Below, in pieces: positions 5,055-42,806 of a stretch of 56,247 bases of DNA. Under the pieces are notes generated by a model. It saw only the letters and a list, made by a program, of their open reading frames with translations. It ran no database searches and had not been told where the DNA came from. Positions within the stretch are counted from its first letter, which is position 1; each line of letters opens with the position of its first letter. Origin of the DNA: an uncultured Pirellulaceae bacterium (GTDB taxonomy: Bacteria > Planctomycetota > Planctomycetia > Pirellulales > Pirellulaceae); contig CALLUY010000077.1 in the NCBI GenBank assembly GCA_938010615.1, forward strand, positions 1 to 56,247. The letters are read 5' to 3'. A program made the translations under genes and the position numbers.

Positions 5055-6458
5055 TCAATCTTGCGAGTTTGCCGTTTGTGGAACTTCAATCTCAAAGTCC
5101 TGACGTCGATACATGCAGACTCCGTCTTCAGTGCAGACGTTATACAAGGCAAAACCTTTGACCGAGCATTTGTCTGCTTTACCGACAAGGATATCGAACT
5201 CCAGCGATCGATTCTCTTTTGAGTCCGGCTGGTTCGGGTTGTCAAACGTCAGAAGGTGCTTCGACAGCTTCGCACCTTCGGACTCGATCCAAACTGTAAG
5301 CGGAGTCGACTCATTATTCCATTTGGCGCCCTTGGGAACGAGACGCATATGGATCGTCGCTGGTTTCTCCGCTTCGACGTAGCCGGGAACCATCGTGGAT
5401 TCGATCAAGATGAACGTTCCACCGTCACGGGAAACTTCTTCGGTCGATTCTGGCTTCGCATCCTCATTCGAATAATTTGGCGTTGAGCGATTCGCCAATT
5501 CAGATTGAGTCAAATCAACAGTAAGGGCAATAGGTGTTTCACCTCGTTCCTTGATCTCCTTGATCGCCGTGCCAACCCAATCGTAAAACGGATAGGGCTT
5601 CTGAAGTCGAGGGCCATATTGTTCGATACGGCGTCGCCAAATGTACTGACCTGGATTCGAATCCAAAGCCATCGTCCAATACTTCGAAGCCATATCAAAG
5701 TCGGCGTCATCGTGAGAATGTTCGTCGTATCGTTGGCGGTATGCCGCGCCCAAGCGAAATAGAATCGTTCCGTTGTTTGGATTCTTTTCTAATGCAGCTT
5801 TATAAGCTTCAATGGCTTTGTCATGGCACTTCATGCCGCTATCGCGAAACAGCATTTCTTGATCGCCCAACATGCATAGGTTCTCAGCCGTTGGATCCTC
5901 TTCGGCAAGCTCTGCGAAGTTTGTTTCTTTTCCCATGACAGGCGACGCGGTTTCGGGGGCATCGAACTTCGTTTTAAGGAACTTCGCGAGACCGTTGGGT
6001 CGAAGCTTTGTGTTCTGCACAATGCCGTACTCATCGATCCCAATGAAGATCGGCACGACGGCAGCGCCTAGCTTCGTGATCGAATCCTGAGCGATTGGGA
6101 AATCGTATTGCTTCCATTGTTTGTACAGTTTTGTTCGTTCGGAGTGCTGTTCCTGAACGACGCCGAGAACGGCAAGATTTTCTGGAGCAAGTTCTTTAAT
6201 CGTTGCGTGCCACACGGGCACCATCTTGCGACAACCAGCTCACCAACTGGCGAAGTGCATCAGCAACACTTTTTTGCCACGATAGTCCGACAATTGAATG
6301 GGGCTGCCGTCATCGATCGAAGGCAGGATGAAATCAACGTGCGGTTGTCCAACCTTTGGTGCGTAGCTGGCAGTCTGAGCACGTGACTCATTTGCCAACA
6401 GAGTGATCACAGCAAATGCAAAGAAGATTGCTGGCGCGGTAGTGTGAGTTCGAATCAT
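5055..6458 (-). CDS. Thioredoxin-fold selenoprotein candidate (Sec-Ala-Gly-Cys) with TPR and DsbD-like C-terminal part
   Basis: Two open frames in the same register are joined across a single TGA at 6240-6242. Read through, they give 467 residues. Residues 1-28 are a signal peptide. About 30-180 form a redoxin domain, with GKKVLLMHFASW, then residue 73 encoded by TGA, then AGCRKMVPVW, and the cis-proline region VVPIFIGIDEYG. Residues about 195-290 hold a TPR-like segment. The last 120 residues resemble the substrate-binding part of DsbD-type proteins (YNVCTEDGVC). TGA stands where thioredoxins have the first Cys of CxxC, and Cys76 would be the partner. A SECIS-like hairpin follows directly. 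The likely role is periplasmic thiol-disulfide exchange or peroxide reduction. The alternative is a nonsense-mutated gene or sequencing error, but the TGA position and hairpin argue against that. Confidence 0.8.
6202..6242 (-). other. Candidate bacterial SECIS element with its UGA codon
   Basis: Reading the minus strand, TGA occupies 6242-6240. Eighteen bases later GTGCC (6221-6217) pairs perfectly with GGCAC (6211-6207) around the five-base loop CGTGT (6216-6212). A second helix, GTTGT (6235-6231) with GCAAC (6206-6202), lies below it across a nine-base bulge. Known bacterial SECIS elements are small hairpins in the coding region, with the apical loop starting some 16-37 bases after UGA and a G among the first two loop bases. 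Here the loop starts 24 bases after the UGA and its second base is G. The fit is by eye, and folding energy was not computed. Confidence 0.7.
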
Positions 6459-6580: not shown

Positions 6581-7954
6581 CTAATCCAACGGAAAGTATT
6601 CAACGGGGATTCGTTGGCGGACCGATTCGAGATGCTTTTCAAACGCTGCGTTAATCTTGTTGTTCTTAAGTCGCTTCTTGATTTCAAGTTGAGCTTCGGT
6701 GAACGGAGTGTACGAGGCTTCATTGCGATCGAGGACTCGGACGATGTGATAACCATCGCGGCTCTCGATGATGTCGCTCAGTTTTCCGATCGGCAATGTG
6801 AAGATCGCGTTGTCGATTTCTTTTAGAACCAAAGCTCCTTTGCCAGTCCAGTCGTGCTGGCCGCCTTGGGATGCGCGAAATCCATCAGAGCTCTTCTTCG
6901 CAGTCGCGGCAAGGTTGGCTCCGTAGATGATTTGGTTTCCAATCTCGGCAATTTTCTTTTTCGCTGCAGTCCGCGATTCCGATTTGTCAAACCGAACCAT
7001 GATCTGCTCCCATTTCGCCTTGGCCCGAATGGCGTACTTTTCCTTGTTGGCCAAGTATTCGTCAAGCATTTCTTGGTGTGTCACGGTTTGATCGATGTTC
7101 AAACTCTGTTGCACAAACTGGCGCGACAGCTGATCTTTTGCCCAAGCCAATCGGACTTGTCGTAGCGAAGATCCTTGCACCCGAAGGTTGCCGTCGAACT
7201 CGGTAATGTTTTTGACGCCCGAGCTCTTGATCATGTCCGGTAAAACCTGCTCGTTAAAGATACCGGAGGCTTGCTTCACAAGGTCGTCAACACTTGCTCC
7301 TTCGGGGAGCTTTCCCAACGCGTCGACGTAGAGCAATTTTTGATCGACGAATTTTTTTGTCATCGCTTTCAAAATTCGTTTTCGCTGAATCTGTTTGGCA
7401 GATTCGGGCGCTTGAGGGATCTTGGCCTCGATGATTTGATTGGCTTCGAACAGCATATCGCCGACAAAAATTGGCTCACCGCCGACAAGGGCGACGACTC
7501 GACCAGGTTCGAAATGTTTTAGCGATTCCGACTTGGTTGTCGTTGTGCTTGAAGGCAGAGAAGCGACGCGAACGCCGTCCTGTTGCTGGGTGACCGGCTC
7601 GATCGCCGTCGCTAGTTGAATCTTATCGGGCGAATCAACAATGTCTGAATTTGGTTTGAAGTCATTCTGTTCTTCTGATCGGTCGCGAACAATCGATCGC
7701 TGATGATTCCACGAAACGGAGCGCTTGTCTGACCTGGTGGAGCCAGATTTAGGAAGTCGCTCACCAATCGAACCAGGCGAGAAACTTGGCGGAACATAAG
7801 TTTCGCTGAAGTCCGGTTTCTTTGCCGCAGGCTTGAAGTACGGATCGGGCGTTGGTTCCGAGGACTGAGCTTCGACATGAGACGCTGTCAGCAGACAAAC
7901 GCCAGCACAAATCGAAACGCGAAAGATAGATTGATAGACTTTTGCCGAAGCCAT
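6581..7954 (-). CDS. Periplasmic peptidyl-prolyl isomerase, parvulin (PpiC/SurA) type
   Basis: The protein has 457 residues. It begins with a signal peptide (residues 1-30, ending near SHVEAQ), then a Ser/Pro-rich low-complexity stretch to about residue 150. A SurA-N-like helical region (about 160-300) is followed by a parvulin domain (about 315-410) containing KWEQIMVRFDK, GGQHDWTGKGALVLKEID, LPIGKLSDIIESRDGYHIVRV. This is the normal order for SurA/PrsA-like foldases, which help secreted proteins fold outside the cytoplasm by isomerising prolyl bonds. The redox protein follows 122 bases downstream on the same strand, so the two may be expressed together as folding factors. The long linker is unusual but common in planctomycete exported proteins. 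Confidence 0.88.
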   Translation of the reverse strand: MASAKVYQSIFRVSICAGVCLLTASHVEAQSSEPTPDPYFKPAAKKPDFSETYVPPSFSPGSIGERLPKSGSTRSDKRSVSWNHQRSIVRDRSEEQNDFKPNSDIVDSPDKIQLATAIEPVTQQQDGVRVASLPSSTTTTKSESLKHFEPGRVVALVGGEPIFVGDMLFEANQIIEAKIPQAPESAKQIQRKRILKAMTKKFVDQKLLYVDALGKLPEGASVDDLVKQASGIFNEQVLPDMIKSSGVKNITEFDGNLRVQGSSLRQVRLAWAKDQLSRQFVQQSLNIDQTVTHQEMLDEYLANKEKYAIRAKAKWEQIMVRFDKSESRTAAKKKIAEIGNQIIYGANLAATAKKSSDGFRASQGGQHDWTGKGALVLKEIDNAIFTLPIGKLSDIIESRDGYHIVRVLDRNEASYTPFTEAQLEIKKRLKNNKINAAFEKHLESVRQRIPVEYFPLD

Positions 7955-8062
7955 GGATTCGCCCTGATAGCAAAAACTGGAGAAAATACCGCGCGACCGT
8001 ACAGATGTTGGCAGCGGTACGCAATAGAATCCTGAAGGTTCGAGGAAATTTCAGCAACTCGC

Positions 8063-8168
8063 AATACAAGCCCGAAGCGCAAGCGAGTGGTCGTTTTGCA
8101 TCCGAGCGAGCCCGCGAGCCCGTGGGTTACGTTGGTTAGACCACTCGCTTGCGCTTCGGGCTTGTATT
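8063..8168. repeat. Perfect 30-bp inverted repeat (palindromic unit, copy 1)
   Basis: The left arm at 8063-8092 starts AATACAAGCCCGAAGCGCAA. It is the exact reverse complement of the right arm at 8139-8168, with a 46-base loop between. The same arms recur at 49706-49818 with a different loop. The unit lies between the mfd stop and the isomerase start on the minus strand. It looks like a REP-type mobile palindrome. It may also act as a transcript-end hairpin for mfd. Confidence 0.9.
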
Positions 8169-8187
8169 TCAACGATTACGCTAGAAC

Positions 8188-11100
8188 TTAAGCGTTTTCT
8201 AGCAGCGATTTCACAAGTGATAGCAACTTGCCCGGCGCGATCTTCCCCGACTTCAGCGTCACCATGGCCGTATGGTCATCAATGATCCGAATCATCGGAC
8301 GCTCTTTGGAGAGCCGTTCCATCCGTGGACGGACGGCGTAATTGAGCACCAGATATTTGTCTCGCAGTTGAATCGCGTCGATCTGCCAAGACGCCGCCAA
8401 TAGTTTGATCTCGGAAGCCGCCAGTAAACGTTCGACCGATTTCGGTAACGGACCAAAGCGATCCGCCAACTCTTCCCGAACTTCACCGATGTCGTCGAAA
8501 CTTTCCAGACGTGTAAGTCGACGATAGAGGTCCAGTTTCTGTCGTCGATCCGGAACGTACTCGTCGGGGATGAAGGCGGAAATTGGCAAATCCACGTCGA
8601 CCTGAATCGAGAGCTTTGCCGGCATTTCCTTGAGTTGTCGCACCGCTTTCTCCAACAGTTGGCAGTACATCTCGTAGCCGACCGTTGCGATGTGGCCCGA
8701 CTGCTGAGTTCCTAGCAAGTTTCCCGCCCCGCGAATTTCTAGGTCTCGCATTGAAATCTGAAAGCCAGCACCCATTTGTGAAAACGTTTCGATCGCTTGC
8801 AGTCGTTTCGCTGCCGTCGGATTCAGATGCTTGTGCGGTTGCAGCAACAGGTAGCAATACGCTTGGTGATGGTAGCGGCCAACGCGGCCTCGAAGCTGGT
8901 GCAGATCCGAAAGGCCGTAGCGATCTGCTTCGTCGATGAAGATCGTGTTCGCATTGGGAATGTCGAGGCCGCTTTCAACGATCGTTGTCGCCAACAGCAC
9001 GTCGAACTTACCGGCGATGAAGTCGCTCATCACCTTCTCGAGTTCCAGTTCGTCCATCTGCCCGTGGCCGACTTCGATGGAAGCCTCAGGAACCAGTTCC
9101 CGAAGTTTCTCTTTCAAAATGTGAATGTCTTTGACTCGGTTGTGAACAAAGAAAACCTGTCCGCCCCTGGCCAGCTCGCGAAGGATCGCCGAACGCACAA
9201 CTTCGTTGTTGAAACGCATCACTTTTGTTTCAACCGGAATTCGATCTTCGGGAGCCGTCTCCAGATTCGCGATATCGCGAACTCCGACCAATGACATATG
9301 CAGCGTTCGCGGAATCGGAGTTGCCGACATGGTCAAAATGTTGACTGTTGAGCGAAAGTTTTTCAGCTTCTCCTTGACCGCGACGCCGAATTTTTGCTCT
9401 TCGTCGATCACAACGAGTCCAAGGTTCTGGAATTCGATGTCTTTCGAAACGATGCGATGAGTCCCGATTGCGATGTCGGCTTCGCCCGATTTCAGTTTGG
9501 CAACGTTCTCCTTCATTTGCTGCGTCGTGCAAAAGCGAGAAAGCTTCACGATCTCCAACGGGAATTCAGCCATTCGGGAACGAAATGATTTGTGATGTTG
9601 TTCGGCCAAGACCGTTGTCGGAACCAGCACGGCAACTTGATATCCGTTTTCGACCGCTTTGAATGCGGCTCGCATCGCGACTTCCGTTTTTCCGAATCCC
9701 ACGTCTCCGCAAAGCAACCGTTCCATCGGTTGCGAATTTTCCATGTCCTCTTTGATCGCGGCGATGGCCGTCAGTTGATCGGGCGTTTCATGATACGGAA
9801 ACGACTGTTCGAATTCGTGTTGCCATTGAGTTTCCATTCGCATCGCGATGCCAGATCGCCCCTGACGTTTGGCCTGAAGGTCAATCATTTCAGACGCCAT
9901 GTCTGTGATCGCGGACTCAACGGATGCTTTTCGTTTCTGCCATCCGGTTCCGCCAATTTTTGCCAGCCGCGGAGTCGTCTTCGATCCGCCGATGTATTTT
10001 TGGACTAGGTCAATTTTTGCCGCGGGCACATAGATACGGGTCCCGGCAGCGAACTCCAGTTCCATGTGCTCCGTATGTTGGCCATCTTTCTCCAGCATCT
10101 TCAGCCCGCGATAGCGACCGATGCCGTGCGATAGGTGCACGATCAAGTTGCCGTCTTTTAAGTCCAGAAAGCTGTCGATCGCTTTGCCGAGTCGCCGTCT
10201 TCCTTTACGCCGCAGGTCGGAACGATTGAAAATTTGATCGCAACTGACGAGTACCTGTTTGGAATCGCGAATTCGAAAGCCGTCATGAATCGAGCCGACG
10301 CCCATCGCGATGCGACCTTCTTTCCACGCTCCTGTTGGCGACAGGATTTCGGTGACTCGGGTCGATTCGCCGTCGACCGACGCAACGATGAGAACTTGAT
10401 ATTCCTGCCCGGTTGCGTCGCGGGAAAGTCGTTCGACTTGCATTCGAATTTCGCCAATCTCGCCGCTGAACTTTTCCACCGACTCGATTGGCAGTTGCCA
10501 TTGCTGACCGATTGCTCCCGTCGTGACCGAACTCGCGGAAGCCAAGCCGCGTCCCGCCATCTTTTCCCGAGTTTCGTCCCACGTGAAAAGTTTGATTGAT
10601 TCCGAAGTTCGTTCGGCGAACCGTTCAGCTTCTTCGCCGAGTGAATCAGGTTCGACGAGCAATACGACGGCGTCTTGCGAAACATGATCAAAAAAGTGGC
10701 CTTCGAAAATTCCGCTGTCATGGTCTGTCAGAACGGTGATTTCAAATTGTTGCAAACTGGAAACACTACGCTGCGTCGAGGTGTCGAACTGGCGCAGCGA
10801 TTCGATCTCATCGTCGAAAAGCTCGATACGCACTGGGCTGGAGAAGTCCGGAGCGAATACATCCAAAATGCCGCCGCGGTTTGAGAACTCTCCCGGCAAT
10901 GCCACAGCACTGGTGCTGTGGAAACCATGTTCTAACAACCAACTTTCAAATGCGGCCACATCGACTTGATCGCCAACGGCCAACCTTCGCGTGTTTCCGC
11001 CAAGTGATTCGGTCGAAGGAACTGGCTGCAACAGCGACGACACGGTTGTGACAATGATTGGATTTTCTTCGCCCGCGTTGAGCGATTTCACCAGCCGCAA

Positions 11101-13857: not shown

Positions 13858-14784
13858 TCATGAGCGCAGGCTGAGTTCGGCAACTTGGTTGCTGTTCGAA
13901 GCGTATGGTTTTTGGTGCTTGATGGTGTGAGACTTTCTTGGGCTTGGCGTTGATGCGGTGCCGAAACATCCAGACTTCGGCTTCGTGGAATACGCCAGAT
14001 AATGACGCAGCGGCAAGCCAATGTGGTCATGAAGCGTCAGGAACTTGTCCACCGTCGGACGGTAAGTCAGCAAGCGAACCGTCAACGTTCTCGCACTGCG
14101 AATCACCTGACCGGGAATCAACATTAGCGAACTCAGATAAGTCGCGAACTCCATCCGGACCAACCACCGACGCAGCTCGCCGCGAACCCGCCGCTGACCC
14201 GGATTGCCTTTGACCTGAACCAGCATGCCGCTCCACTGCTTCAGGTTCCACGCCAGCGAAGCAAACACCATGTAGGCACCGTTGCTCGCCAGATCATGCA
14301 GTGGTGCCTTGAGGCAATGACAAGCCTTGAGCTGCGCAATTGTGTTCTCCTGGTTGCAGCGACGATTCGCGCCGCGGATCACCTCGCGGGCCGGCAAGGC
14401 CTTCTTCGACTCGTTCGTGATATAGAAGAAGTAACGAATCTGATCGTCATCGAACAAACGCTGCTGACCGCTGTGGCAATGGACCTCCTTACGAACCACC
14501 ACCATGCGATAGCTGCGACTGCATCTGGAGGGACGGTAATCGAACTCGGCATAGCTCTCACTGGCAAGAACCAGATTTTTATAGCCTTTCTCGACGACGA
14601 TTTCTTCGCGAGTGTTGTCGCGCCGGTGACGTGGCTTGCTGCTTTGCCGCGAGTTTCGCTTGAGTGTTTTCCACCGCTTTTCGTCGAGCGAATCAGCGAT
14701 CCCGACAAGATTCGCGAAGATGTGATTGGTGCCTGGAGCGCTCAAGCCGAACGCTGAGACGTGGCACCCAGCGAATCGGTCAAA
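13858..14784 (-). pseudogene. IS1380-type transposase remnant, N-terminal part missing
   Basis: The frame encodes about 300 residues matching the C-terminal portion of IS1380-family DDE transposases. Recognisable elements are EFDYRPSRCSRSYRMVVVRK, then DDQIRYFFYITN, then NRRCNQENTIAQLK, then MVFASLAWNLKQWS and the basic RMEFATYLSSL stretch. Intact family members have about 430-460 residues, so the N-terminal 150-200, including the first catalytic Asp, are absent. The open frame begins just after a TGA at 14785-14787, where the homology seems to stop. I could not identify terminal inverted repeats. This is a decayed insertion sequence, not an active one. The aldo/keto reductase stop lies only about 17 bases away, so the fragment abuts a live gene. 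Confidence 0.8.
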
Positions 14785-30317: not shown

Positions 30318-33300
30318 ATGCGTAAAAAGCTTAATTTTTCACGAGTTCCATTTTCTGTTGCAGTTGTCGCCATAATGGTCGTTTGGCCAATGGCAACCGA
30401 ATGCGATGCCGCAGCGAAATTTGTGATTCAAGATTCGCAACCGGATGAACTATCTAGAGAAGAAGCGAAAAGCATCAAGATTGCTGATCGGTTTTTTTCG
30501 ATTTTGGAAAAGAGCCCACGTCGCGGCACGGCACTCGAACGAGTTTACGGTCACCATGTCGAATTCGGGACGCTGGATGAATTCCTGAAGGGTTTGCGCG
30601 ATCGAATCGAAGCCAATCCTGAAGACGGCGATGGCTGGATGTTGCTCGGGATGTTCGAAGCCCACCGTGGGCAGGACGCCGAAGCCGTGGACGCGTTCTC
30701 AAAAGCAGAAACGTTTCGCACCGAAGATGCCATGCCGAGCTACTACCTTGGGCAAAGCTTGCTGCTGATCGGTCAGCCAGAGAAGGCCGTCGAAGCATTC
30801 GAACGGGCCGTTGATCGCAAGCCGCGTCGTCCTGACATGTTAGAAATTTTTCGCCAGTTAGGCCGCGTCCATCAACGGGCTCAACGAACCGAAGAAGCAC
30901 TCAAAGTTTGGGATCGTCTCGAGAAGCTCTTTCCCGATGACGCGCGAGTTCAGGAGCAGATTGCGATCACGATGGTTGAGGAAGGCGAATACGATTTGGC
31001 TTTGCCACGCTATGAGAACTTGGCAAAGATCGTCAAAGATGACTATCGCCGCGTCACTTTCAACATCGAAGCGGCAGAACTGAAGATCCGACTGAACAAG
31101 CGCGGCGAAGGGATCGCCGACTTGGAAAAACTGTTGGCCGATTTGAATCCAACCGGATGGCTTTTCCGCGACGTGCGGCGACGAATTGAAGACATCTTTC
31201 TTCGTAGCGGTGACCAAGACGGGTTGGTGACGTACTATCAAAAATGGATCGACAAAAATCCTGAAGACATCGGAGCGATTGCTCGTTTGGCTCGGTTTTT
31301 AGCGTCTTCTGCTCGTGTTGAGGAAGCCAGTCAATGGATGGAGAAGGCGCTCACGCTGGCGCCAAAACGGACGGACTTGCGAAAGAGTTTCATCAATCAA
31401 CTGGTCAACGATCAACGTTACACCGAAGCATCAAAACAGTACGCAGAACTGGTCAAGTCAGCTCCTGGCAATCCGGACTTTCTTCGTGATTGGGGCAAGC
31501 TGGTGATGAAGGATCGCAGCGTTGAAAAAGACAAACGTCGCGAACAAGCCGTCAAAATTTGGAGCCGAATCGTTGAAGCTCGCCCCAACGACGCGCTCAC
31601 TCATGCTCAAGTTGCAGATCTCTATCGCCAGTCTGGCCTCGAAGCAGAGGCAATCGAGCGATACGAAAATGCGATCGAGCTAGCGCCTGGCGAAGCGCAG
31701 TATCGCGAGTACCTTGGTGAGTACTTTCATATTCTCAAGCGACCTGATGATGCCCTCAAAATTTGGGAATCGATTGCTGAAGGAAAACGCAACACGGCCG
31801 AAAACGTTGCGAGACTGGCAGAAGTTTACAACAGCTTTGGCTACCTTCCTCAAGCGGTCGAGAAAATTGCTGCCGCGTGCGAACTCGATCCGAAAGAGTT
31901 TGTGCTGCAGTTGAAGGCTGCCGAGTACCACATGCGAGATGGTAAGTTTGACAAATCCCTCGCCTACAACACCGCCGCGAATGCGCTTTCGGCCAGCGAT
32001 GAAGAATCTGAATTGGCGTTGAAGAATCGCATTGAGATCTTCCAAACTAATCGAAAGCTGGAAGAAGAAATCGATCGACTGAGAGAACAGGCTCAAAGCG
32101 CAGGTAAACCAACCGTCGACGCTTGGCATACTTTGGCGCGTTATCTTGAAGCCAGTCGAAACTGGGCCGATGCGACAGAAGCACTCGAAAAGGCATTGGC
32201 GATTGATGACAAATCGATTCCTGTGCTCACCACGTCGGCCCGCATCGCCGAAACATCAGGCGACTACGGACGTGCCGCGGCGGAAAACAGGAAGCTGGCT
32301 TCGATTGATCGACGTCTGCGAAGCGAACACTTAATGAACGTTGCCAGGCTCGAAGCTCAACTTGGAAACCGCGACCAAGCGATGGCTGCGGCCAAAGAAT
32401 TAATCTTGGCGGCGCCAGGAAACACTGACAATTACCAGTTCTATTCGCAGCTCTGCTATCGACTGGGCGAAACGGAAGAAGCACTCGATGCGTTGCGAAA
32501 AGCAGTGCGAATCAACCCGACCGAACCATCGCTGACCATGGCTTTGGGTCGCTCGTTGGCGGAAGAATTTCGTACCGATGAAGCCATCGAAGTTTATTGG
32601 CGGGCGTTCGAAAAATCAGATGAGATCGACGATCGAACTTCGCTGGTGCAGAAGTTGGCGTCGCTTTACGAACAGCAGAATCAGTTCGATAAATTGCTCG
32701 AGCGTCTCGAGCGCGATCGTCGCGAAGAATCAAAACGTCGCGAAATGACAATCTGCATCGCCCAAGCTCACAATTCTACAGGCGATTATGGAACCGCGCG
32801 TCGTGAACTCGAGAGTTTGCTGACCGACAATACTCGCGATACGAATTTGCTCCAGCAGCTTTCCAAGCTTTGTGAGTCAGGTTCTGACTTGGACGCCGCG
32901 GTCGCCTATCAGACTCAGTTGACAAAAATTGCTCCCGGACACGAATCCGAGTTTCGGTTGGCGAAGCTGTTGTTTAGCAGTGGCAAACGCGAAGCGGCGT
33001 CTGAGATTTTTGTGAAGCTCACGTCGCGCGAAGAAAATCCAGTTCGGTTGCTCAGGAGTGTTGATAGCCTACTGCAACGTAGCAATTTCGAAAGCGTCGT
33101 CAAAATTACCGAACCGCTACTGAGCGAGTCACGTGACAATTGGGAGTTGCTCTATCGCGAAGGCGTTGCACTGGCGAAGCAGGAGAAAGTTGACGAAGCC
33201 AAAATTCGATTCGAACGAATTCTGTCGTTGAGTTTTCCTCACGACAAAATGGGTGTCGCCGCGGAAGAAAGATTTAAACGTGCAAGCAAGAAAGCCAAAT

Positions 33301-36300
33301 CGAACAACAACCAAGGAATTCGCAGCCAGATTAAGGAACGTCCCAGCGCGTTTCAATTGGCACGGAGTCAAGCAGGCTCCGCGAAACAAGCCGTTGGTCT
33401 TTCACAGCAGAGTTACTACGGTGGCAATCAGTTGCCGCCACTTTGGACGCCAAGCCATTACGGTGTCGCGAGAATGGCGGCCTACGCTTGGCTGACTCGA
33501 TTCGAATCCGATGTTGAAATCGAAAAAGATGTAGCGGCAATTTCGGAAGATGAAACGGATGATGAAGATGACGACGAAGAGGAACCTGAAGTCGCTTCGT
33601 TTACTGACTCGATTGTTGAAAAGGGCAAAAAAGAAGATGCCGACCCGAATGAAATCCTCGACTGGCTATACGTCGAGAGTTTGCGCGGAGGATACAAGGA
33701 AATCTTTGAGATCTCGAAGCGGCTTGCGATTGACGGTGGGAAACAGGAGCAGCAGTTTTTCCTTTCTTCTCTGCCGATGCGAGGTATCGATTCAAAAACG
33801 GCACGGCAAAACAACCAGCAAGAAGTGCAGGATCCTGATCCGCTGTCCGAAGCCGACATCGAACTGATGCTGAAATGTTTCAAAGCGACGGCCAAGGAAG
33901 ATGACGCCTTCGGCACTGCTCTTGGTTCCGGACAAGTGATCTATTCTGGCGGCCAGATGTACGTTCGTGTTGGTAATAGTTGGCAGAGCGTTGGCGGCCA
34001 GCGAGGATCACTCGCGCAAGTCGTGAAAGAGTTGAAGCTGGCGAGCAAAACGGAACTCGCCGAGAAAATGATCAATGAAAAAGTTGATGCGGCGAAGAAG
34101 CCGACGCAACTTGCCCAGGCGATGCTGATGCTGATCTCGGAGAAGAAAACGGATCGCGTTGATGAATACTTTGCCAAATGGAAAACCGCGGCGGCCGAGG
34201 AGATTGAACTAGCGCCAGTCAAGTTGTCCCGACGTGGGAACTCGACCAACAAGCATTCCGCGAATCAAACGGCTCAAGTTTTGGATCTGATTCGAAAGTG
34301 GACCGGACCGCTGGCCGCCGAAGAGGAGAACGTAAAAGTTCTGTCGATCATCAATGATGTTCTGGACATTGAAATGAAAGAACGGGTCAAGAAACGCGTG
34401 CAGGCCAAAGCTTCCCGAAAACGAAAATCGCGATCGCGAAGTACCTACTATGACAACGATATTCCTTATCAATACGGCGACGAAGCAAGCACGACCAGCG
34501 TCGACTATCCTCGCCCGAGCGACTACCTGTCGACGACCGGAATCCACATGCTCCGTCAGGCTTACGAGACGCTGAAGAAGAACGAAGTCGAAGAAGATCT
34601 AACGACGATGGTTCGTGAACGGGTCAAGAAAGCGGAAACCGATTCACCGGAATCATTGATGTACGAGCAAATGTTGATGGCCACGCTGCTGTTTTGGCAG
34701 GACGAAAAAGATGAAGCCGTCGAAATGTTCCGCGCCGTTTCGGTGCAGCTGAAGGACGATCCGCAGTTTCAATTCGAAATCGCCAGCCTGTACGAAAAGT
34801 TGGGCGAACACGATGAAGCTCTAAGCATCATCGAAGCAATCGAACCGCGCGAACAGAAGCTGGTTCAGCAAAAAGAAACCAAAGTCTTGACGTTGGCTGA
34901 ACGCCTGGGTGACCTTGATCGAGCCCGAGCTGCCGCGGAACGCCTGTTCGGTTTGCGATTGAAGGCACAGACTCAGTTGTCGTTAGTCAGCAACATGAAA
35001 CGGCTGGGCATGGTCGAGATGGCCGATGCGGTTGTCTCGCGAGCACAGCGCCGCAGCGGACAGAAGATTCCTGCGATGGCCAGCCTGATGAGCCTCTACC
35101 AGGGCCAGGGGAAACCGGAACTGGCGACTCAGGTTGCGCATCGGATTTTACAGAAAACTCGATCGAGTGTTTCGCAGGCTGCGATGATCAATCGGAATCG
35201 ACGATACGGCCGAAGCAGCAACTCCAACGAATCGCACCGGCGAGCCGCGATTTCAACTTTACAGCAAACGGGGGCATTGAATTCGGTCATCGAACGATTG
35301 GAAAAGCAACAGGAACGATCGCCAGAATCGCCAGCGATCTACGAGCAGTTAATTGAATTTTATATGCAGACGAACAACAGCGATAAACTGTTGCCGATGC
35401 TCGAAACGGCCGTCAAGTCGCGACCGAAGTCGTCGTACTTCCGTGAGCAGCTTGCGAAACAGTATTCGGCCAAAGGGAAAAACGAAGAAGCGTGCGATCA
35501 ATACGCGGCCGCGATCCGTGAGAATCCTTCCATGCTTTCGGATGATTACTACGAGATCAAACAGTTCTTCAAGTCCGCCAATCGCAGTTCCGATTTACTG
35601 AAGCTTTTCCAGGACATCAATATTCGTGAAATTGGCCAGCCTTACTATGTCGCAAATTTCGCATCGGAGCTACTACGGGAGTCTCAACAGGCCAACACCG
35701 ATGCAATGTCGGACGAAGAAAAGAAAGCCAACGAGGCCACGGAGCTTGCGGCGATTCAATTGGCAGAAAAAATCTTCGATGAGTACCCCAATTACCGGCG
35801 ATACGTGATTCAAAACTTCGATGGTGAAGATGTTTGGAAGAACAAGCGTCTGTTCAATTTGGCTCGTAAGTCAATCATTCCAACGAAGTCACAAGCCAAG
35901 TCGGATCCGTGGTATGGGCTGAATGATATCTCGTCCTACTCGGGCAACGGAGAGGTGAATTCCATGTTCCATGATGTCTTCGAAGGCATCGAAGGGACTG
36001 ATCAGGAGAAAGTTCTCTGCGAGTCGATCGAAAAGAACATCGCCAAGAAACCGGATTGGTTGGCCGGAAAAATCATGTTGGCGATGTTCGATGTTCGCGG
36101 CGATCGGGAAGAGAAAGCAAAAGAATCTCTGACCGCAATCTTTGCTGACGAAAAAGTTGCTGACACCGTCCGCGGGGATACGGCTTGGCTGGTCGCGCAG
36201 GAGCTGGAGAAGTTTCCCGAGACGCGCGAAATCGCGGTGAAACTGTTGGAGAAAGTTGCCAAGAAAACGGACAACAATAACGACAATGAAATTCAATATT

Positions 36301-39300
36301 CGGCGGCTGGAAAGCTCGTGATGTTGTATCTCGATTCGGATGAAAAGGATAAGGCCAGAGATCTATTGTTGGAGGCCGCAAAGAAGAAGACTCATCAGAA
36401 CTACGATCGCCAATATCAAATGTATCAGCGTGGCCAGACCATCTTTTGGGTTACCAACAAGTTGTTGGAGATCGATTGCTCCGCTGATGCTGTTTCGTTG
36501 ATGCAGGGGATGTTGAACGATCAAGCGGTCATCGACGGATGGACGCAGTGGGGAGGAAACGATATCTCGGTCGCCAATGCCCTTTACGCGAAGTCGCTCG
36601 AACGCGCCATGGCAGACGAAGACACCGCTGGCGTTGCGGAAAAAATTATCGCAGTCCGTGACAAACCGCGTGCAGGAGACGGTGCTTTCGATCTGCAAGT
36701 TGGCGTCTCTGTGGTGAGCAACAATCGTGCGCGGACGCGATACGTTATCAGAAACGGGCGACGCGAAGCCGTTGTCGCTAAGGCATCAGCCCCCGAGATT
36801 GAATGCAAGTTTTTCAAACTTCTGGACACGCTTTCGAAAAAGGACATCGGCAAGCAGCTTTTGGAGAAGCGGTTGAAGCAATTGCAAACCGAAAAGCCCG
36901 ACGACAAAACGATTGCGATCGCAAACACATGGTTCCAATTGAAAAATGCTCCGGAAGAATCTGCGGCTGCGGAAGCACTTTTGGAGCTAATCAAGAAAAA
37001 TCCACTGGATGAGATCCGTGAAGGGCGCCGTCCGAATTCACGTCAACGACGCCAAGCGATGCAGCATGTTGCATTGTGGCCAATCAGCAAAGAATACCTG
37101 TCGAGCAAGGAGCCGAAGTTTCAGAAACTCGGCAAAGAGTTGGGTGAGCTTGCGATCAGTGGAGCTCGTCGACAAACGGACAAACAGTACCAACATCGAA
37201 TGCTGTTTGAGTGGGGGACGATGGCGGCCAAAGCGGACAATCTCGAGGAAGCGGAAAGTAAATGGTCGCAGTTGCTCGACGAAGTGACGCGTCGTCCGAC
37301 ACGAAAGAAGAAAGCCAAGCCAACCGATGCAATTCCGGGAGTTCCGATTCCGCAGCGAGCGCCGGGCACAAGCATGAAACTGGATGCCCCTTCCTCCCAG
37401 GGGGAGGGTTTTGGAATCGCACCACAACCTCTGGTGGTTCGTGTTGGAGAACGTTACCAAAGCCCATCAATGTACGTTGGCATCAATTTTCCTCGACAGG
37501 ACACTCCACAAGAGAAAACGGAAACCAAATCACCCGCATTGATCGCTCCACTTACCAACTCGCAATTTCAAACTGCCCTTCAGATTGCGGCCGCAGCGGC
37601 GGACAACGACATGCCCGAACTGTCAAAGCGGGCAATGCGAGAAATGCTTAAAGGTGGTCTTCCCGTCGCCGATCCGACGTTCGGCGATTCGAATTCCAAC
37701 AGTCGATCTGCTGCCATGGTCTATGTCTCACCTGCGGCTCGTGCTGCCACGGCCCAACCTGGCAACGCAACCAGCACGGCTTCTTTCGGTTCGCAAATTC
37801 GAACGATTCTGGATGTTTGGAAGGACAAAGAAGAAGGCTACGATCCGATCGAAGTCTACGAAATGACGGTCGCTAAAATTTTCCCCGAAAATCGACCATC
37901 GGAGATCCTGCTGTACGAACAGTCTTCCTCCATCCGCAACGCGACAGTCAGCAGTTTGGCTCGAACCGTCGTTTCGTGGGCGGCGAAAGCGGATCGTTTG
38001 GATGATTTCAAGAAACGGATTGCAGAACGGGAAGCTGAACCACGCGCGCAAGTTCAAGCGATGGTGCTCAACGGGATGGTTGCGTTGGAACAAAAAGATT
38101 TTCCTGCAATCAACGCGAACTTGGCGAAACTAGTTCAGCGAGTTACGAAACAGCCAGTGCCGCGAGACGTCGATCTGGCCTGCCACATCGCGGTGCCGGC
38201 CTGGACGGCTGACGATTCCCTTCGCGAACAATGTATCAAAATTTACCGGAAGAAGCTCGCGGCAAACAAAAAGTCTGAACTTGGAAAAATTGCGACTCGA
38301 GTCAATCGACATCTTGCGGCTAACGGCGGAGAGGCGGAAGTGCGAAAGTTCTTCGAAGGATACCTCGCCGCACAGCAGGAACAGTATGCAAACTATGGCG
38401 GCGACTACGGAATCTATCAGATGCAAAGATCGCTGTATCGAGTCTCCGGCGATTTGGCCAAGTCAAACTTGAGTGAGTTGGCCCTAGAATACATTGGCCG
38501 CGGCAAGGATTTGAAACACGATAGAAACTATGGCAACAACTCGGACAATGATGGTTGGATCGAAACAGCCAAACGTATTCGTGCGATGCCGGCTGAAAAA
38601 CGATATGCGACGCTCAAGGATTGGACGTTGCCAAAACCAGATCGACAGACGGTTCGATTTTCCTCTGCTTGGAGTGCGAATCCGGGCGATGAGCTAGCGG
38701 ATTTTCGTGTGCCAGGAGTTCGTGATTTACCCGACGCGACGTTGCCCGGCTTGCATTGTAATTTTCTGGACTTGATCGATGCTGCAGCGGAAGCTGGAAA
38801 GATGGACGACCTCAAGCAGTCCGTCGCCGCCGTTGACATTAAGAAGCATCCTGAAGTGGAAGGGTTGCAGGTTTGCATCGCGATTCGTTCCGACGATCCA
38901 GCTGCCGAAGAGATCGTGCGAAAGTACATCAAGGAACGCCCCGAACGGCAGAAACACAAAACGCTGGACCAGAACGTTAACAACTGGTCAGAGCATTTGG
39001 CTTGTCGCCTTAGTGCGCAGAAATCGGAAGAGTTGGGAAAACTTTTTGATGACAGTCGTTGGAAAATCATTCAGCAAAACGTTGGAGGCACAGGAAAGGT
39101 TGTTCGTCGTGACTATGAAATTCGACGCGCCAAATTCCTCGATACCAACGTGCAGCCGGGAACTTTCGATCCATTGTTGCATTGGCTCCCTCGTTATCAT
39201 GCAACTCGGTCCAACGGCACCGTCAATTCATGGACCGTTAGCGATGGCGATCAGCTGACCGCTTTGGGGTCAGATTCCAAGTCGACTTACTGGCTCAAGT

Positions 39301-42300
39301 ATCCGCTCAAAGGTGACTTCAAGTTCTCTTGTGAGGCTTATTCCTCTGGCAATAGCAGTGCGGAAATTGCGTTTGGAGGTGCGATGGTTCAATCGCAGTA
39401 CCGCAGAAATGGTGCCTTCATGATGATCAATTCGGTTGCCAATCATGATGCCATCTATCGACCGACCAACGGTACTGTGAAGCAGCAACAGTACGGTTTG
39501 TTGACGATCGAAGTCCAAGACGGTGTCATGAAACAGGCTCTTAATGGAAAAGTCTTGTATCAGGAAAAGTTGACTGGATCGTATCCGTGGCTGGCGTTGT
39601 TTACGAACTCAACAAGTTTGACGGCGTGGCGAAATCCGGTCTTCGAAGGCACTCCGGAAATCGTAACTGAAGTTGCCTTGATTGATGGCAATCGGATGGA
39701 AGGTTGGAGCACCGGTCGTGAATCACAGATCGCATTTCGAGGACTTGCAGAGCCGAAACCAAAAGAGCTCGAAGAACAGGAAGTCGCCGAAACCAAGGAA
39801 AAGAAACCTGAAGAGTACGACTGGCACGCGAAAGAAGGTGTGCTCTATGGAAAAGCGAACGACAAAGCAAAGGAAGGCAGCGACAGCGTGATCAGCTACC
39901 GCCGTCCGATCTCCGACGGTGATCGATTGAGCTTTGAGTTCTTCTACGAGCCAGGGAAAAAAATGGCCAATCCAACTATCGGTTCGGTGATTGTTGGCCT
40001 GACCGAAGGTGAGAAAGTTCAGGAACTTGTTGCGGGTGACTCAGAATTGGACGAGTACGCGACGTTCGTAAACGTCATCGATTCGCCACACGCAGTCGAA
40101 ACAGTGAAGCTCATTGCGAACGATTGGAATTCCGTTGAGTCGCGAATCGTTGGAGACAATGCTGAGGTCGAAGTCAACGGAGTCGTTGTTTGGCGTCGGC
40201 CTGTTACGAAACTCGACTCTTTGTTCGCCGGCATACAAAAGTACAAAAAGTACTCAGCTGAGATTCGCAAATTGCGATTGAAGGGAGATTGGCCCGGAAA
40301 GTTTCCAGAAGGTCTTCGTGAAAGTGCTTTCGCCAGCGAACGTAGTCTTGAGGAAAAGGATCACGATTTGATGGCCGAGGTGATCGGCGATCGATTCAAG
40401 AACGTGGAAATGTTAGCGCTTTATGACGACGCGAATTCGAAAGTCAGTACCGAATCGGCGGAGCGATACAACCAGTTTCGCAAATGGGTTTTTCCCGGCT
40501 ACGGCCATGGAGTTCGAATGGACTATCGCACCGTCCCCAAAAAGATTCGCACATCGGAGCAGCTGGCCGCGGACAACGAGAGCGAAATCGAATGTCCGGC
40601 GTGGGACATGATCGAGCTTGCAAAGGAGGCCGGTAAATTGGATGAGCTCGAAGAAGCGATCGGTGCACTCGAAATTCCGAAAGATAAATTGCTTCCCAAG
40701 TTCCGAGATATGACGGCATTGAAGGCGTTGTTGGCGATCGCCAAAGAAGACGACGAAACGGCTCGTGGGTATTTGAATGAAATTTATGCGTCGGTTGTCG
40801 CAGTTGAAGAGAAAGCGAAGAAGGACGAAAAGGAGAATGAAAACCATTCCGCGCCCAGCATCGACCGAACTTCAATCATGGTGCCAACTTGGTTTGCGAC
40901 GAATCGACCTGCGTTGCTCGATTGTGCAACCAGTCTGCAAACGAAATGTCAATCAGGTTTGGGCAATGCGATCCTTGCTCGAATCGAAAAACGTTCTGAC
41001 ACAATGGCCACGACCAAACCGTTGACTCAATGGAATGCCGCACATACTGGAATCCAGTCGATCAATCAGCAGGGCGGATACCTTGATCAATGGCGGATGT
41101 CGGCGATGGGAGTTTTGGAACGCTCGCCGGGCCATGTGAGCACTCCGCTCTATTTTCAGTCTCCTCTGAAGGGAAAATTTGAAATCACAGCGGACGTGTT
41201 GCGAAAAAGTGGGGCTCAATGTTGGTTGGACTACGGAGGCTACGCTGCGATTCCGGATGGGAAACGGTTTCGGTCTAGGATTGCAGGCAATGCGAACAGG
41301 AGTTCGAGCGAGAAATCCAAAAAGCAAGTCCCTCGATTGCATAGCGTTGTTCAGTATCGGATCGCGGTCGATGGAAACAATGTTGAAACTTATGTCAACG
41401 ACGTTCGCGTGAGCCGACACGAATTCGACCAGGCACCGCAACCGTGGTTCAGTTTGCAAACCAACGTTGGAAGTGCTCGTCCGATTTTGCAAAATGTTCG
41501 CATTACGGGTCAGCCTGAAATTCCAACTGAGATCGATTTGTTAGCAGCCGATCGACCACAGTGGAGCGGAGCGTTCAAGCGTTTCAAAGAATCAACGGAT
41601 GATCAGAATCGACATTATTCCCATCCCGGTTCGGTTCCCGCCGATCCATGGTTGCTGAAAAAAGGTGAACTGACTGCCGGTTCGCTCAAGATGAGTCTTC
41701 CCGATCGTCATGTTTTCAAAGAGAGCAGGCTGTTTTATCAACGTCCGATGCTCGAAGACGGTGAATTCGAATTTGAGATGTTCGCCGATGATGAAAAATT
41801 GAAACTCTGTCACGTTTCGCTTGGTCGTACTGCTTTGTTGCTGAAAGAAGACGGCGTTTGGCGGCACGAGATCGGAGGATACGACGGCACCGAAGAGACC
41901 GAAGATGAAAAGATCGCAGACTCTTCTGGAGTAGAACTGAAGAATGAAGATTGGAATCAGATTTTGATTCGACTCAAAGGCGACACCGCAACGTTGCTGG
42001 TCAACGATCAGGAAGTCGCGACGTTTGAAGTCGCAGATGCCCCGTCGTTACGTTTCCCGGGCTTGTTTCGATTCTCCGATCAGAGCAATGCTCAGGTTCG
42101 CAACATCAAGTATCGCGGCGAATGGCCGAAGACGTTGCCATCGGTTGAGCAGCAGGAACTGGCGCAGCATTCTACGGATCCGTTTGAGGGAGCGGTTGTC
42201 GGCAAAGCGAAAGTATTTGACCTGTCAAAAAGCATTGAGGAACTGAAAACCGTTGGCTTGGAGGTCACGGATGGTGGGCAGATCGAAACGACGAGCAACG

Positions 42301-42806
42301 GCGTTAAAATTTCCACTCGCAAGAATGCTGATTCGGCGAAGTGGCCTGCTTTCAAGTCGATGGTCAGCGCAAAGGATGACTTCGACTTGAGCGTTGGCTT
42401 TTCAGATTTGAAGATCGCCAACGTAACCGGTTGGGGCTGCGGTCTCGACTTGCAGGTCGACTTCGATTGTGTTGAAAGTAAATCGCTCACTATCGGAATG
42501 CGGCGCGATAAGGACAATGCCATGTTCATTATTGCTCAACGTGAGTACGACGATCCCAACGGTAAACGTAGCTACGAAACGACAAAGCTTCATGAACCAT
42601 TCGAAAAAGGAACATTGCGGATGGTTCGACGCGGAGGAAAAGTGTACGCGTTGGCCGCCGCGGATGGCGGAAAGCATCGATTGATCGCCAGCTATATCGT
42701 TGGTAAGCAATTGGCTTCGGCAATTTCCGTCACTGGCAGATCCGCAACCGATACGGCTGAACTTGATGTGGTCGTCAAAGAAATTAGTTTGAAGCTGGCA
42801 GAGTAG
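30318..42806 (+). CDS. Giant exported TPR protein (4,162 residues) with duplicated C-terminal modules
   Basis: One uninterrupted frame of 12.5 kb. A signal peptide covers about residues 1-32 (cleavage near TECDA). TPR repeats fill about 85-1000 (for example DGWMLLGMFEAHRGQDAEAV and AMPSYYLGQSLLLIGQPEKA). An acidic linker lies near 1070-1100, and more TPR-like helices follow to about 2750. The C-terminal 1,400 residues hold two tandem copies of a module, about 2760-3335 and 3384-3940. Each is a helical part, then two LamG-like beta domains that close with an 'IRKLRLKGDWP'/'VRNIKYRGEWP' strand. A last beta domain ends the protein. The C-terminus resembles Pirellulaceae-restricted DUF1581/DUF1583 families. 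A role as an extracytoplasmic scaffold is inferred. Confidence 0.9.
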   Translation: MRKKLNFSRVPFSVAVVAIMVVWPMATECDAAAKFVIQDSQPDELSREEAKSIKIADRFFSILEKSPRRGTALERVYGHHVEFGTLDEFLKGLRDRIEANPEDGDGWMLLGMFEAHRGQDAEAVDAFSKAETFRTEDAMPSYYLGQSLLLIGQPEKAVEAFERAVDRKPRRPDMLEIFRQLGRVHQRAQRTEEALKVWDRLEKLFPDDARVQEQIAITMVEEGEYDLALPRYENLAKIVKDDYRRVTFNIEAAELKIRLNKRGEGIADLEKLLADLNPTGWLFRDVRRRIEDIFLRSGDQDGLVTYYQKWIDKNPEDIGAIARLARFLASSARVEEASQWMEKALTLAPKRTDLRKSFINQLVNDQRYTEASKQYAELVKSAPGNPDFLRDWGKLVMKDRSVEKDKRREQAVKIWSRIVEARPNDALTHAQVADLYRQSGLEAEAIERYENAIELAPGEAQYREYLGEYFHILKRPDDALKIWESIAEGKRNTAENVARLAEVYNSFGYLPQAVEKIAAACELDPKEFVLQLKAAEYHMRDGKFDKSLAYNTAANALSASDEESELALKNRIEIFQTNRKLEEEIDRLREQAQSAGKPTVDAWHTLARYLEASRNWADATEALEKALAIDDKSIPVLTTSARIAETSGDYGRAAAENRKLASIDRRLRSEHLMNVARLEAQLGNRDQAMAAAKELILAAPGNTDNYQFYSQLCYRLGETEEALDALRKAVRINPTEPSLTMALGRSLAEEFRTDEAIEVYWRAFEKSDEIDDRTSLVQKLASLYEQQNQFDKLLERLERDRREESKRREMTICIAQAHNSTGDYGTARRELESLLTDNTRDTNLLQQLSKLCESGSDLDAAVAYQTQLTKIAPGHESEFRLAKLLFSSGKREAASEIFVKLTSREENPVRLLRSVDSLLQRSNFESVVKITEPLLSESRDNWELLYREGVALAKQEKVDEAKIRFERILSLSFPHDKMGVAAEERFKRASKKAKSNNNQGIRSQIKERPSAFQLARSQAGSAKQAVGLSQQSYYGGNQLPPLWTPSHYGVARMAAYAWLTRFESDVEIEKDVAAISEDETDDEDDDEEEPEVASFTDSIVEKGKKEDADPNEILDWLYVESLRGGYKEIFEISKRLAIDGGKQEQQFFLSSLPMRGIDSKTARQNNQQEVQDPDPLSEADIELMLKCFKATAKEDDAFGTALGSGQVIYSGGQMYVRVGNSWQSVGGQRGSLAQVVKELKLASKTELAEKMINEKVDAAKKPTQLAQAMLMLISEKKTDRVDEYFAKWKTAAAEEIELAPVKLSRRGNSTNKHSANQTAQVLDLIRKWTGPLAAEEENVKVLSIINDVLDIEMKERVKKRVQAKASRKRKSRSRSTYYDNDIPYQYGDEASTTSVDYPRPSDYLSTTGIHMLRQAYETLKKNEVEEDLTTMVRERVKKAETDSPESLMYEQMLMATLLFWQDEKDEAVEMFRAVSVQLKDDPQFQFEIASLYEKLGEHDEALSIIEAIEPREQKLVQQKETKVLTLAERLGDLDRARAAAERLFGLRLKAQTQLSLVSNMKRLGMVEMADAVVSRAQRRSGQKIPAMASLMSLYQGQGKPELATQVAHRILQKTRSSVSQAAMINRNRRYGRSSNSNESHRRAAISTLQQTGALNSVIERLEKQQERSPESPAIYEQLIEFYMQTNNSDKLLPMLETAVKSRPKSSYFREQLAKQYSAKGKNEEACDQYAAAIRENPSMLSDDYYEIKQFFKSANRSSDLLKLFQDINIREIGQPYYVANFASELLRESQQANTDAMSDEEKKANEATELAAIQLAEKIFDEYPNYRRYVIQNFDGEDVWKNKRLFNLARKSIIPTKSQAKSDPWYGLNDISSYSGNGEVNSMFHDVFEGIEGTDQEKVLCESIEKNIAKKPDWLAGKIMLAMFDVRGDREEKAKESLTAIFADEKVADTVRGDTAWLVAQELEKFPETREIAVKLLEKVAKKTDNNNDNEIQYSAAGKLVMLYLDSDEKDKARDLLLEAAKKKTHQNYDRQYQMYQRGQTIFWVTNKLLEIDCSADAVSLMQGMLNDQAVIDGWTQWGGNDISVANALYAKSLERAMADEDTAGVAEKIIAVRDKPRAGDGAFDLQVGVSVVSNNRARTRYVIRNGRREAVVAKASAPEIECKFFKLLDTLSKKDIGKQLLEKRLKQLQTEKPDDKTIAIANTWFQLKNAPEESAAAEALLELIKKNPLDEIREGRRPNSRQRRQAMQHVALWPISKEYLSSKEPKFQKLGKELGELAISGARRQTDKQYQHRMLFEWGTMAAKADNLEEAESKWSQLLDEVTRRPTRKKKAKPTDAIPGVPIPQRAPGTSMKLDAPSSQGEGFGIAPQPLVVRVGERYQSPSMYVGINFPRQDTPQEKTETKSPALIAPLTNSQFQTALQIAAAAADNDMPELSKRAMREMLKGGLPVADPTFGDSNSNSRSAAMVYVSPAARAATAQPGNATSTASFGSQIRTILDVWKDKEEGYDPIEVYEMTVAKIFPENRPSEILLYEQSSSIRNATVSSLARTVVSWAAKADRLDDFKKRIAEREAEPRAQVQAMVLNGMVALEQKDFPAINANLAKLVQRVTKQPVPRDVDLACHIAVPAWTADDSLREQCIKIYRKKLAANKKSELGKIATRVNRHLAANGGEAEVRKFFEGYLAAQQEQYANYGGDYGIYQMQRSLYRVSGDLAKSNLSELALEYIGRGKDLKHDRNYGNNSDNDGWIETAKRIRAMPAEKRYATLKDWTLPKPDRQTVRFSSAWSANPGDELADFRVPGVRDLPDATLPGLHCNFLDLIDAAAEAGKMDDLKQSVAAVDIKKHPEVEGLQVCIAIRSDDPAAEEIVRKYIKERPERQKHKTLDQNVNNWSEHLACRLSAQKSEELGKLFDDSRWKIIQQNVGGTGKVVRRDYEIRRAKFLDTNVQPGTFDPLLHWLPRYHATRSNGTVNSWTVSDGDQLTALGSDSKSTYWLKYPLKGDFKFSCEAYSSGNSSAEIAFGGAMVQSQYRRNGAFMMINSVANHDAIYRPTNGTVKQQQYGLLTIEVQDGVMKQALNGKVLYQEKLTGSYPWLALFTNSTSLTAWRNPVFEGTPEIVTEVALIDGNRMEGWSTGRESQIAFRGLAEPKPKELEEQEVAETKEKKPEEYDWHAKEGVLYGKANDKAKEGSDSVISYRRPISDGDRLSFEFFYEPGKKMANPTIGSVIVGLTEGEKVQELVAGDSELDEYATFVNVIDSPHAVETVKLIANDWNSVESRIVGDNAEVEVNGVVVWRRPVTKLDSLFAGIQKYKKYSAEIRKLRLKGDWPGKFPEGLRESAFASERSLEEKDHDLMAEVIGDRFKNVEMLALYDDANSKVSTESAERYNQFRKWVFPGYGHGVRMDYRTVPKKIRTSEQLAADNESEIECPAWDMIELAKEAGKLDELEEAIGALEIPKDKLLPKFRDMTALKALLAIAKEDDETARGYLNEIYASVVAVEEKAKKDEKENENHSAPSIDRTSIMVPTWFATNRPALLDCATSLQTKCQSGLGNAILARIEKRSDTMATTKPLTQWNAAHTGIQSINQQGGYLDQWRMSAMGVLERSPGHVSTPLYFQSPLKGKFEITADVLRKSGAQCWLDYGGYAAIPDGKRFRSRIAGNANRSSSEKSKKQVPRLHSVVQYRIAVDGNNVETYVNDVRVSRHEFDQAPQPWFSLQTNVGSARPILQNVRITGQPEIPTEIDLLAADRPQWSGAFKRFKESTDDQNRHYSHPGSVPADPWLLKKGELTAGSLKMSLPDRHVFKESRLFYQRPMLEDGEFEFEMFADDEKLKLCHVSLGRTALLLKEDGVWRHEIGGYDGTEETEDEKIADSSGVELKNEDWNQILIRLKGDTATLLVNDQEVATFEVADAPSLRFPGLFRFSDQSNAQVRNIKYRGEWPKTLPSVEQQELAQHSTDPFEGAVVGKAKVFDLSKSIEELKTVGLEVTDGGQIETTSNGVKISTRKNADSAKWPAFKSMVSAKDDFDLSVGFSDLKIANVTGWGCGLDLQVDFDCVESKSLTIGMRRDKDNAMFIIAQREYDDPNGKRSYETTKLHEPFEKGTLRMVRRGGKVYALAAADGGKHRLIASYIVGKQLASAISVTGRSATDTAELDVVVKEISLKLAE

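Follow-up and report, generated by a model that had tools for sequence, protein, structure and literature searches.

A predicted selenoprotein family joining a ResA/TlpA-like redoxin domain to a TPR region and a C-terminal Ig-like domain in planctomycetes and other bacteria

A gene of an uncultured Pirellulaceae bacterium encodes, with a probability that we put at about 0.9, a selenoprotein with a predicted redox role, in which SelB and Sec-tRNA(Sec) decode an in-frame TGA at codon 73 by means of a hairpin. For the insertion of selenocysteine (Sec) at codon 73 as such, the TGA, the co-varying hairpin and the Sec machinery make a computational case that we regard as close to certain. The product has a ResA/TlpA-like redoxin domain, then a TPR region and, at the C-terminus, an Ig-like domain that carries a pair of Cys. 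Sec-containing thioredoxin-like proteins are a known kind; the new part is the architecture, together with the strictness with which Sec is kept.

The gene lies on the minus strand of the window, by which we mean the whole stretch of 56,247 nucleotides that was analysed. From an ATG at 6458-6456 to a terminal TGA at 5057-5055, translation gives one frame of 467 residues with Sec73 (5055..6458); a plus-strand reading of 5055-6458 was rejected, as it contains several stops. Only one TGA interrupts the frame, at residue 73 (6242-6240), and its context, HFASW-TGA-AGCRKM, puts it where a thioredoxin-type motif (W-U-A-G-C) has its first active-site residue; the resolving Cys76 (6231..6233) is invariant in the alignments. 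An earlier note on this DNA had described two frames joined over one TGA on the first active-site position of a redoxin, and the minus-strand translation, open apart from that lone codon, agrees with this description in both respects. It also agrees with the predicted outcome for gene calling: without recoding, 72 codons before the TGA are separated from a 389-residue ORF (5055..6224) after it.

The TGA is shared by every homologue that covers the site. Within the order, a search of 396 genomes gave matches at E 1e-15 in ten, of which one is a C-terminal fragment; the other nine, among them the window, span the site with one TGA each. The alignment of the nine sequences was used to search 84,980 named species genomes, and the best 80 of 122 relatives were taken. 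Search patterns were PYPFYDW and FASWCAG, and since the latter was written with Cys, Cys forms should if anything have been favoured. Codon 73 is TGA in 90/90 site-covering loci of the 93 in this first set, which includes the best 80 of the 122 relatives, and removal of 8 duplicates left 82 distinct genes. Among 392 genomes of the phylum 44 matched, and the 30 of these that were checked by codon all have TGA, adding 24 new genes. A search of 396 genomes from the phylum of an Acidobacteriota carrier gave 19 matches, and in a third set of 21 loci the 19 covering the site have TGA as well (19/19; 9 genes new). The total is 115 TGA codons in 115 distinct genes, without a Cys homologue among them and at identities to the window down to about 35%. 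The earlier note had argued that a TGA would hardly hit the catalytic codon by chance and had expected either Cys or Sec in homologues; conservation on this scale bears out the argument and narrows the expectation to Sec.

Candidates for a Cys form were rejected. A distant match without a stop (L147, G415:C197) reads FASW-DNSR, with neither Cys nor Sec, and by its sequence is probably a redox-inactive paralogue; two of the 44 phylum matches (G396 and G453) belong to a sister group with a U-G-C motif. The residue after Sec is Ala in 94, Arg in 9, Val in 2 and Gln in 1 of 106. A tree of 81 rows comprises, by bin labels, 45 Planctomycetota, 17 Acidobacteriota, 8 Gemmatimonadota and 3 Verrucomicrobiota, besides three single rows with other labels and 5 unlabelled ones, and it joins the window to Mariniblastus and further Pirellulaceae bins with a support of 100/100. 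Two loci show irregularities: L099:6004-6246 has an extra TAG four codons after the Cys (AGCR-stop), being either a decayed copy or a sequence error, and G440:C41:13592-14917 was reported with two TGA codons inside the match, of which one was located, at the Sec site.

In the encoded protein, an N-terminal signal peptide is plausible from hydrophobicity. The signal-peptide-like residues 1-27 (6378..6458) fall in a stretch of low pLDDT (residues 1-30), and placing the cleavage site after Ala27 is a guess. By a crude scan, 77/82 members have a hydrophobic stretch near the N-terminus and 11/82 a lipobox-like motif. The redoxin domain follows at about residues 36-163 (5970..6353). Pfam models scoring over their cut-offs were AhpC-TSA (PF00578; 49.8 bits, cut-off 26), Redoxin (36.1) and TPR_1 (PF00515), the last at 27.9 bits with a cut-off of 27.8; TPR_11 scored 27.0. 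An AlphaFold2 model built from 79 sequences (mean pLDDT 91.3) comprises the redoxin domain, helices over residues 181-304, and then a beta-sandwich that starts near residue 350. Val135 is invariant and Pro136 present in at least 90% of members, at the position of the cis-Pro strand. The helical region (about residues 181-304, 5547..5918), which contains an invariant KPYPFYDW motif at residues 287-294, corresponds to the TPR-like segment that had been proposed, as the narrow PF00515 match and the modelled helices indicate.

The C-terminal domain (about residues 340-460, 5079..5441) is an Ig-like beta-sandwich in the predicted structures and in Foldseek comparisons. Modelled alone it reached a pLDDT of 93.1, and none of its Foldseek matches reached E 0.001. 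It bears a second Cys pair, Cys442/Cys448 (5115..5135), of which Cys442 is invariant and Cys448 conserved in at least 90%; in the model of the window protein one strand ends at 442 and the next starts at 448. The spacing in the window is C-x5-C; of 81 members, 6 have C-x5-C and 73 have C-x6-C, and the pair is absent in 2. The earlier note had called this part DsbD-like, an assignment that we do not uphold. The N-terminal domain of E. coli DsbD (DsbD-alpha) has the same Ig-like fold class, and C-x3-G-x-C is common to the window (CTEDGVC) and to E. coli DsbD (CADAGFC), but most relatives have C-x6-C and many other Ig-like domains match better. A profile comparison with the E. coli domain by hhalign detected no sequence homology (probability 0.6%, E 0.1), the listed Pfam matches (E 0.01 or better) include no DsbD family, and the fold matches only weakly, with DsbD-alpha at rank 46 (E 0.021) among generic Ig-like domains; DsbD membership was rejected on these grounds.

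Judged from its family, the protein is probably exported and engaged in thiol-disulfide rather than peroxidase chemistry. The best Foldseek matches of the first domain are ResA-like structures (E 1.3e-8), and the ResA/TlpA thiol-disulfide oxidoreductases share both the fold and the probable location of the window protein, differing in that their solved structures have Cys in place of Sec and lack a TPR or Ig-like extension. A less likely alternative, though one that deserves some weight, accepts Sec and makes the protein a peroxidase, with Sec73 reducing peroxides and Cys76 resolving. AhpC-TSA is after all the top Pfam match, ahead of Redoxin, and is matched by 81/81 members; because the redoxin domain also scores as AhpC/TSA, such a role keeps a place, and peroxiredoxin structures do occur lower in the Foldseek list. 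The best structural and sequence matches are nevertheless to ResA/TlpA-type proteins, and the motif is U-x-x-C after F/W-A-S-W, as opposed to the T-x-x-U of Sec peroxiredoxins as given in the available text of PMC13188914.

Acting outside the cytoplasm as a ResA/TlpA-type thiol-disulfide oxidoreductase, the exported protein would use the selenolate of Sec73 to attack a substrate disulfide, and Cys76 would resolve the bond through a Sec-Cys selenylsulfide. The least certain step concerns the C-terminal domain, which might act as a built-in partner kept in place by the TPR region, with Cys442/Cys448 passing electrons to or from the redoxin domain. This internal relay is speculative, and we offer it as a tentative idea that is rather doubtful at present.

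Reading of the TGA would be directed by a hairpin located shortly downstream (6207..6221). With the T of the TGA numbered 0, bases 21-25 pair with 31-35; in the window this gives a stem of 5 bp (GUGCC/GGCAC) and a 5-nt loop (CGUGU) starting 23 nt past the TGA, with a folding energy of -12.2 kcal/mol. The bacterial SECIS model, as it appears in the available text of PMC13188914, places the apical loop 16-37 nt away and has a loop of 3-9 nt, a stem of 4-16 bp, a G in the first two loop positions and an MFE of -7.5 or lower. The window hairpin lies within these ranges on each count, its G being the second base of the loop, and loop position 2 is G in 82/82 genes. All five stem pairs form in 103 of the 115 genes. 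In the set from which it was defined it is paired in 70/82 genes, against a mean of 29.1 (sd 4.2, maximum 42 in 200) when the codons of each gene were replaced by synonymous ones according to that gene's usage; outside this set it is paired in 24/24 genes (null 9.3, maximum 16), and in the third set in 9/9 further genes (null 2.8, maximum 7).

Co-variation is seen in codons 80 and 84, which occur as the compensatory pairs GTG/CAC, ATT/AAT, GTC/GAC, GTA/TAC, GTA/TAT, ATA/TAT, GTT/AAC and CTG/CAG. Residue 84 (His, Asn, Tyr, Gln or Asp) covaries with the codon of residue 80, and some of these pairs change both amino acids, so that the protein appears to be constrained by the RNA. Of the 12 genes with an unpaired stem, nine form exactly one clade with a support of 100/100 (L042, L044, L045, L049, L050, L054, L056, L065 and L085), and this clade has an alternative conserved hairpin nearer the TGA (14-21/25-32), with 8 bp in eight members and 7 bp in one. 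The other three (L021, L022 and L039) have one stem mismatch and no alternative hairpin. Folding energy is ordinary: the window hairpin has a z of 0.02, 94/200 shuffles fold equally well, and the mean folding z relative to synonymous recodings is only -0.51. The case for the hairpin is built on pairing and co-variation.

The machinery for Sec insertion is encoded in the source genome, a draft of 4.7 Mb in 221 contigs that is 84% complete. The earlier note had named selA, selB, selC and selD as the genes to look for. SelA (552 bits, cut-off 267.9), selB (349.8 bits, cut-off 242.25) and selD (262.6 bits, cut-off 125) score over curated cut-offs, and a tRNA-Sec (selC) is found with RF01852 (65.9, gathering score 47) and also called by ARAGORN, as tRNA-SeC with anticodon TCA. 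As the RF01852 cut-off was exceeded in 5/14 control genomes and is not fully specific, the sel call is made on all four genes together. In this draft bin they lie on contigs other than that of the selenoprotein gene. Their presence, along with TGA in 115/115 homologues, sustains the proposal that Sec occupies the first active-site position of a thioredoxin-fold protein.

Machinery and gene also co-occur across genomes. SelA is over cut-off in 47/50 carrier genomes (50 of 72 intended genomes were covered) compared with 115/396 genomes of the order generally, and within the order it is found at E 1e-50 in 8/10 carriers. The carriers without a selA match, 3/50 in the carrier set and 2/10 in the order, are all draft genomes; three of these five have a tRNA-Sec over threshold, and two (G777 and G799) do not. 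One selA match, at G792:C353:463-1812, has a TGA inside the frame.

Sel genes lie near the family gene in at least 5/81 loci. In L087 and L104, selD, selB, selA and tRNA-Sec (selC) stand in a row upstream of it on the same strand; on the opposite strand are selA and tRNA-Sec in L107 and selB in L068, and L058 has a partial selB 159 bases upstream (113 bits, below cut-off). Flanks extended to at most 6 kb, and family models were run on these five loci only. A conserved neighbourhood was rejected as a clue to function, with no neighbour cluster in more than 6/81 loci. Directly downstream of the family gene and sel genes of L104 is another TGA-containing frame (7442-8416), whose product has a non-redoxin N-terminal part and then an AhpC/TSA domain with HW-U-PFC. 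The window itself has a PPIC-type PPIase gene (6581-7954, minus strand) 123 nt upstream of the selenoprotein gene on the same strand, which does not recur beside the family gene in the other loci compared. Elsewhere in the window are a 4162-residue ORF (30318-42806, plus strand) with many TPR matches, DUF1581 and DUF1583, and an ORF (13858-14745, minus strand) whose weak, sub-threshold matches to DDE transposases may mark the remains of an insertion element. Rfam gave no match in the window, and no phage record matched. On another contig of the source genome (L031, G000:C44:5878-6216), a second redoxin-like frame with a lipoprotein-like start has one TGA in FFGDW-U-GACK and likely encodes a second selenoprotein.

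Readings of the TGA other than Sec fare poorly. That it is decoded as Trp or Cys, through a changed code or general read-through, would suit its occurrence where Cys is usual, yet the same gene terminates at TGA, terminal stops across the family mix TGA, TAG and TAA, the sel genes are present, and the hairpin is conserved only in the way expected of a SECIS; we consider this very improbable. Still less credible is a pseudogene or sequencing error, in which a TGT or TGC (or TGG) had mutated and the gene was broken: the sequence does come from a draft bin with one internal stop, and L099 has a further one, but the frame is otherwise open, the hairpin is conserved, and the TGA in 115/115 distinct genes, to about 35% identity, refutes this explanation for the family. 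A true stop at codon 73 with a separate downstream protein, for which the ATG at codon 79 of the window could serve as internal start, is equally hard to credit: the product would have lost the redoxin active site along with the initial strands of that domain, and the ATG is not conserved, residue 79 being Ile or His in other rows of the alignment.

The closest named family is NCBIfam NF041054 (ResA-like WAxxUGC motif-containing protein, 'WAxxUGC_long'), a sister group in which a TPR-like region likewise follows a ResA-like domain that contains Sec. Its model is matched by 81/81 members at E 0.001 or better (best E 1.1e-26), but the window scores 62.7 bits, well below the cut-off of 300. The U-G-C motif of NF041054 is one residue shorter than the U-A-G-C of the window family, and NF041054-like sequences have an extra N-terminal region and end about where the C-terminal domain of the window family begins. 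A search of 294 genomes of the phylum with this model gave 3 matches at E 1e-40, none over cut-off, all with W/F-A-S-W-U-G-C and without that C-terminal domain. Planctomycete sister proteins of this type (L143, L144, L145, L149 and L150), with U-G-C and the extra N-terminal region, are below the NF041054 cut-off where scored and share FRLG and Y-x-x-R/K-x-Q motifs with the window family.

PMC13188914 lists 119 selenoprotein families, and two entries of its Table 1, 'Redoxin family protein' (PF08534, UxxC, HEU0032618.1) and 'Thiol-disulfide isomerase-like protein' (cd02966, UxxC), would be compatible in general label and type of motif. For neither does the table mention a TPR or C-terminal domain, the comparison is by description only, and no Table 1 entry names a TPR or Ig-like fusion; the first of the two, HEU0032618.1, could overlap the window family. 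The available text of PMC2398784 describes a fusion that resembles the window protein in joining a Sec redoxin to a domain that bears Cys; its CxxC motif and three Cys set it apart, and here too we compare descriptions only. Selenoproteins have been reported in the planctomycetes P1 and P2 (PMC4807772, in the text available). The window protein is not described in the available parts of PMC4807772, PMC12013277, PMC9312934, PMC2398784, PMC9402790 and PMC5029168, and the open-licence literature searched contains no description of it.

Within our sample, the family seems to be Sec-only, little described and dependent on selenium. Its Sec-only site spans planctomycetes, Acidobacteriota and Gemmatimonadota, and in some genomes the gene is part of a sel operon. 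Ordinary gene callers would split these genes in two, so that in planctomycete and acidobacterial genomes the family can easily escape notice. With Sec in 115/115 genes, it can serve to test why Sec is retained in some cases, and its hairpin offers clean natural compensatory variants for work on bacterial SECIS elements outside E. coli. We suggest, as a possibility somewhat short of an even chance, that the family has never reverted to Cys and that its hairpin dictates protein sequence, one clade having swapped hairpins. Given that Sec is kept in every carrier genome, the protein may also help to keep the whole Sec trait alive.
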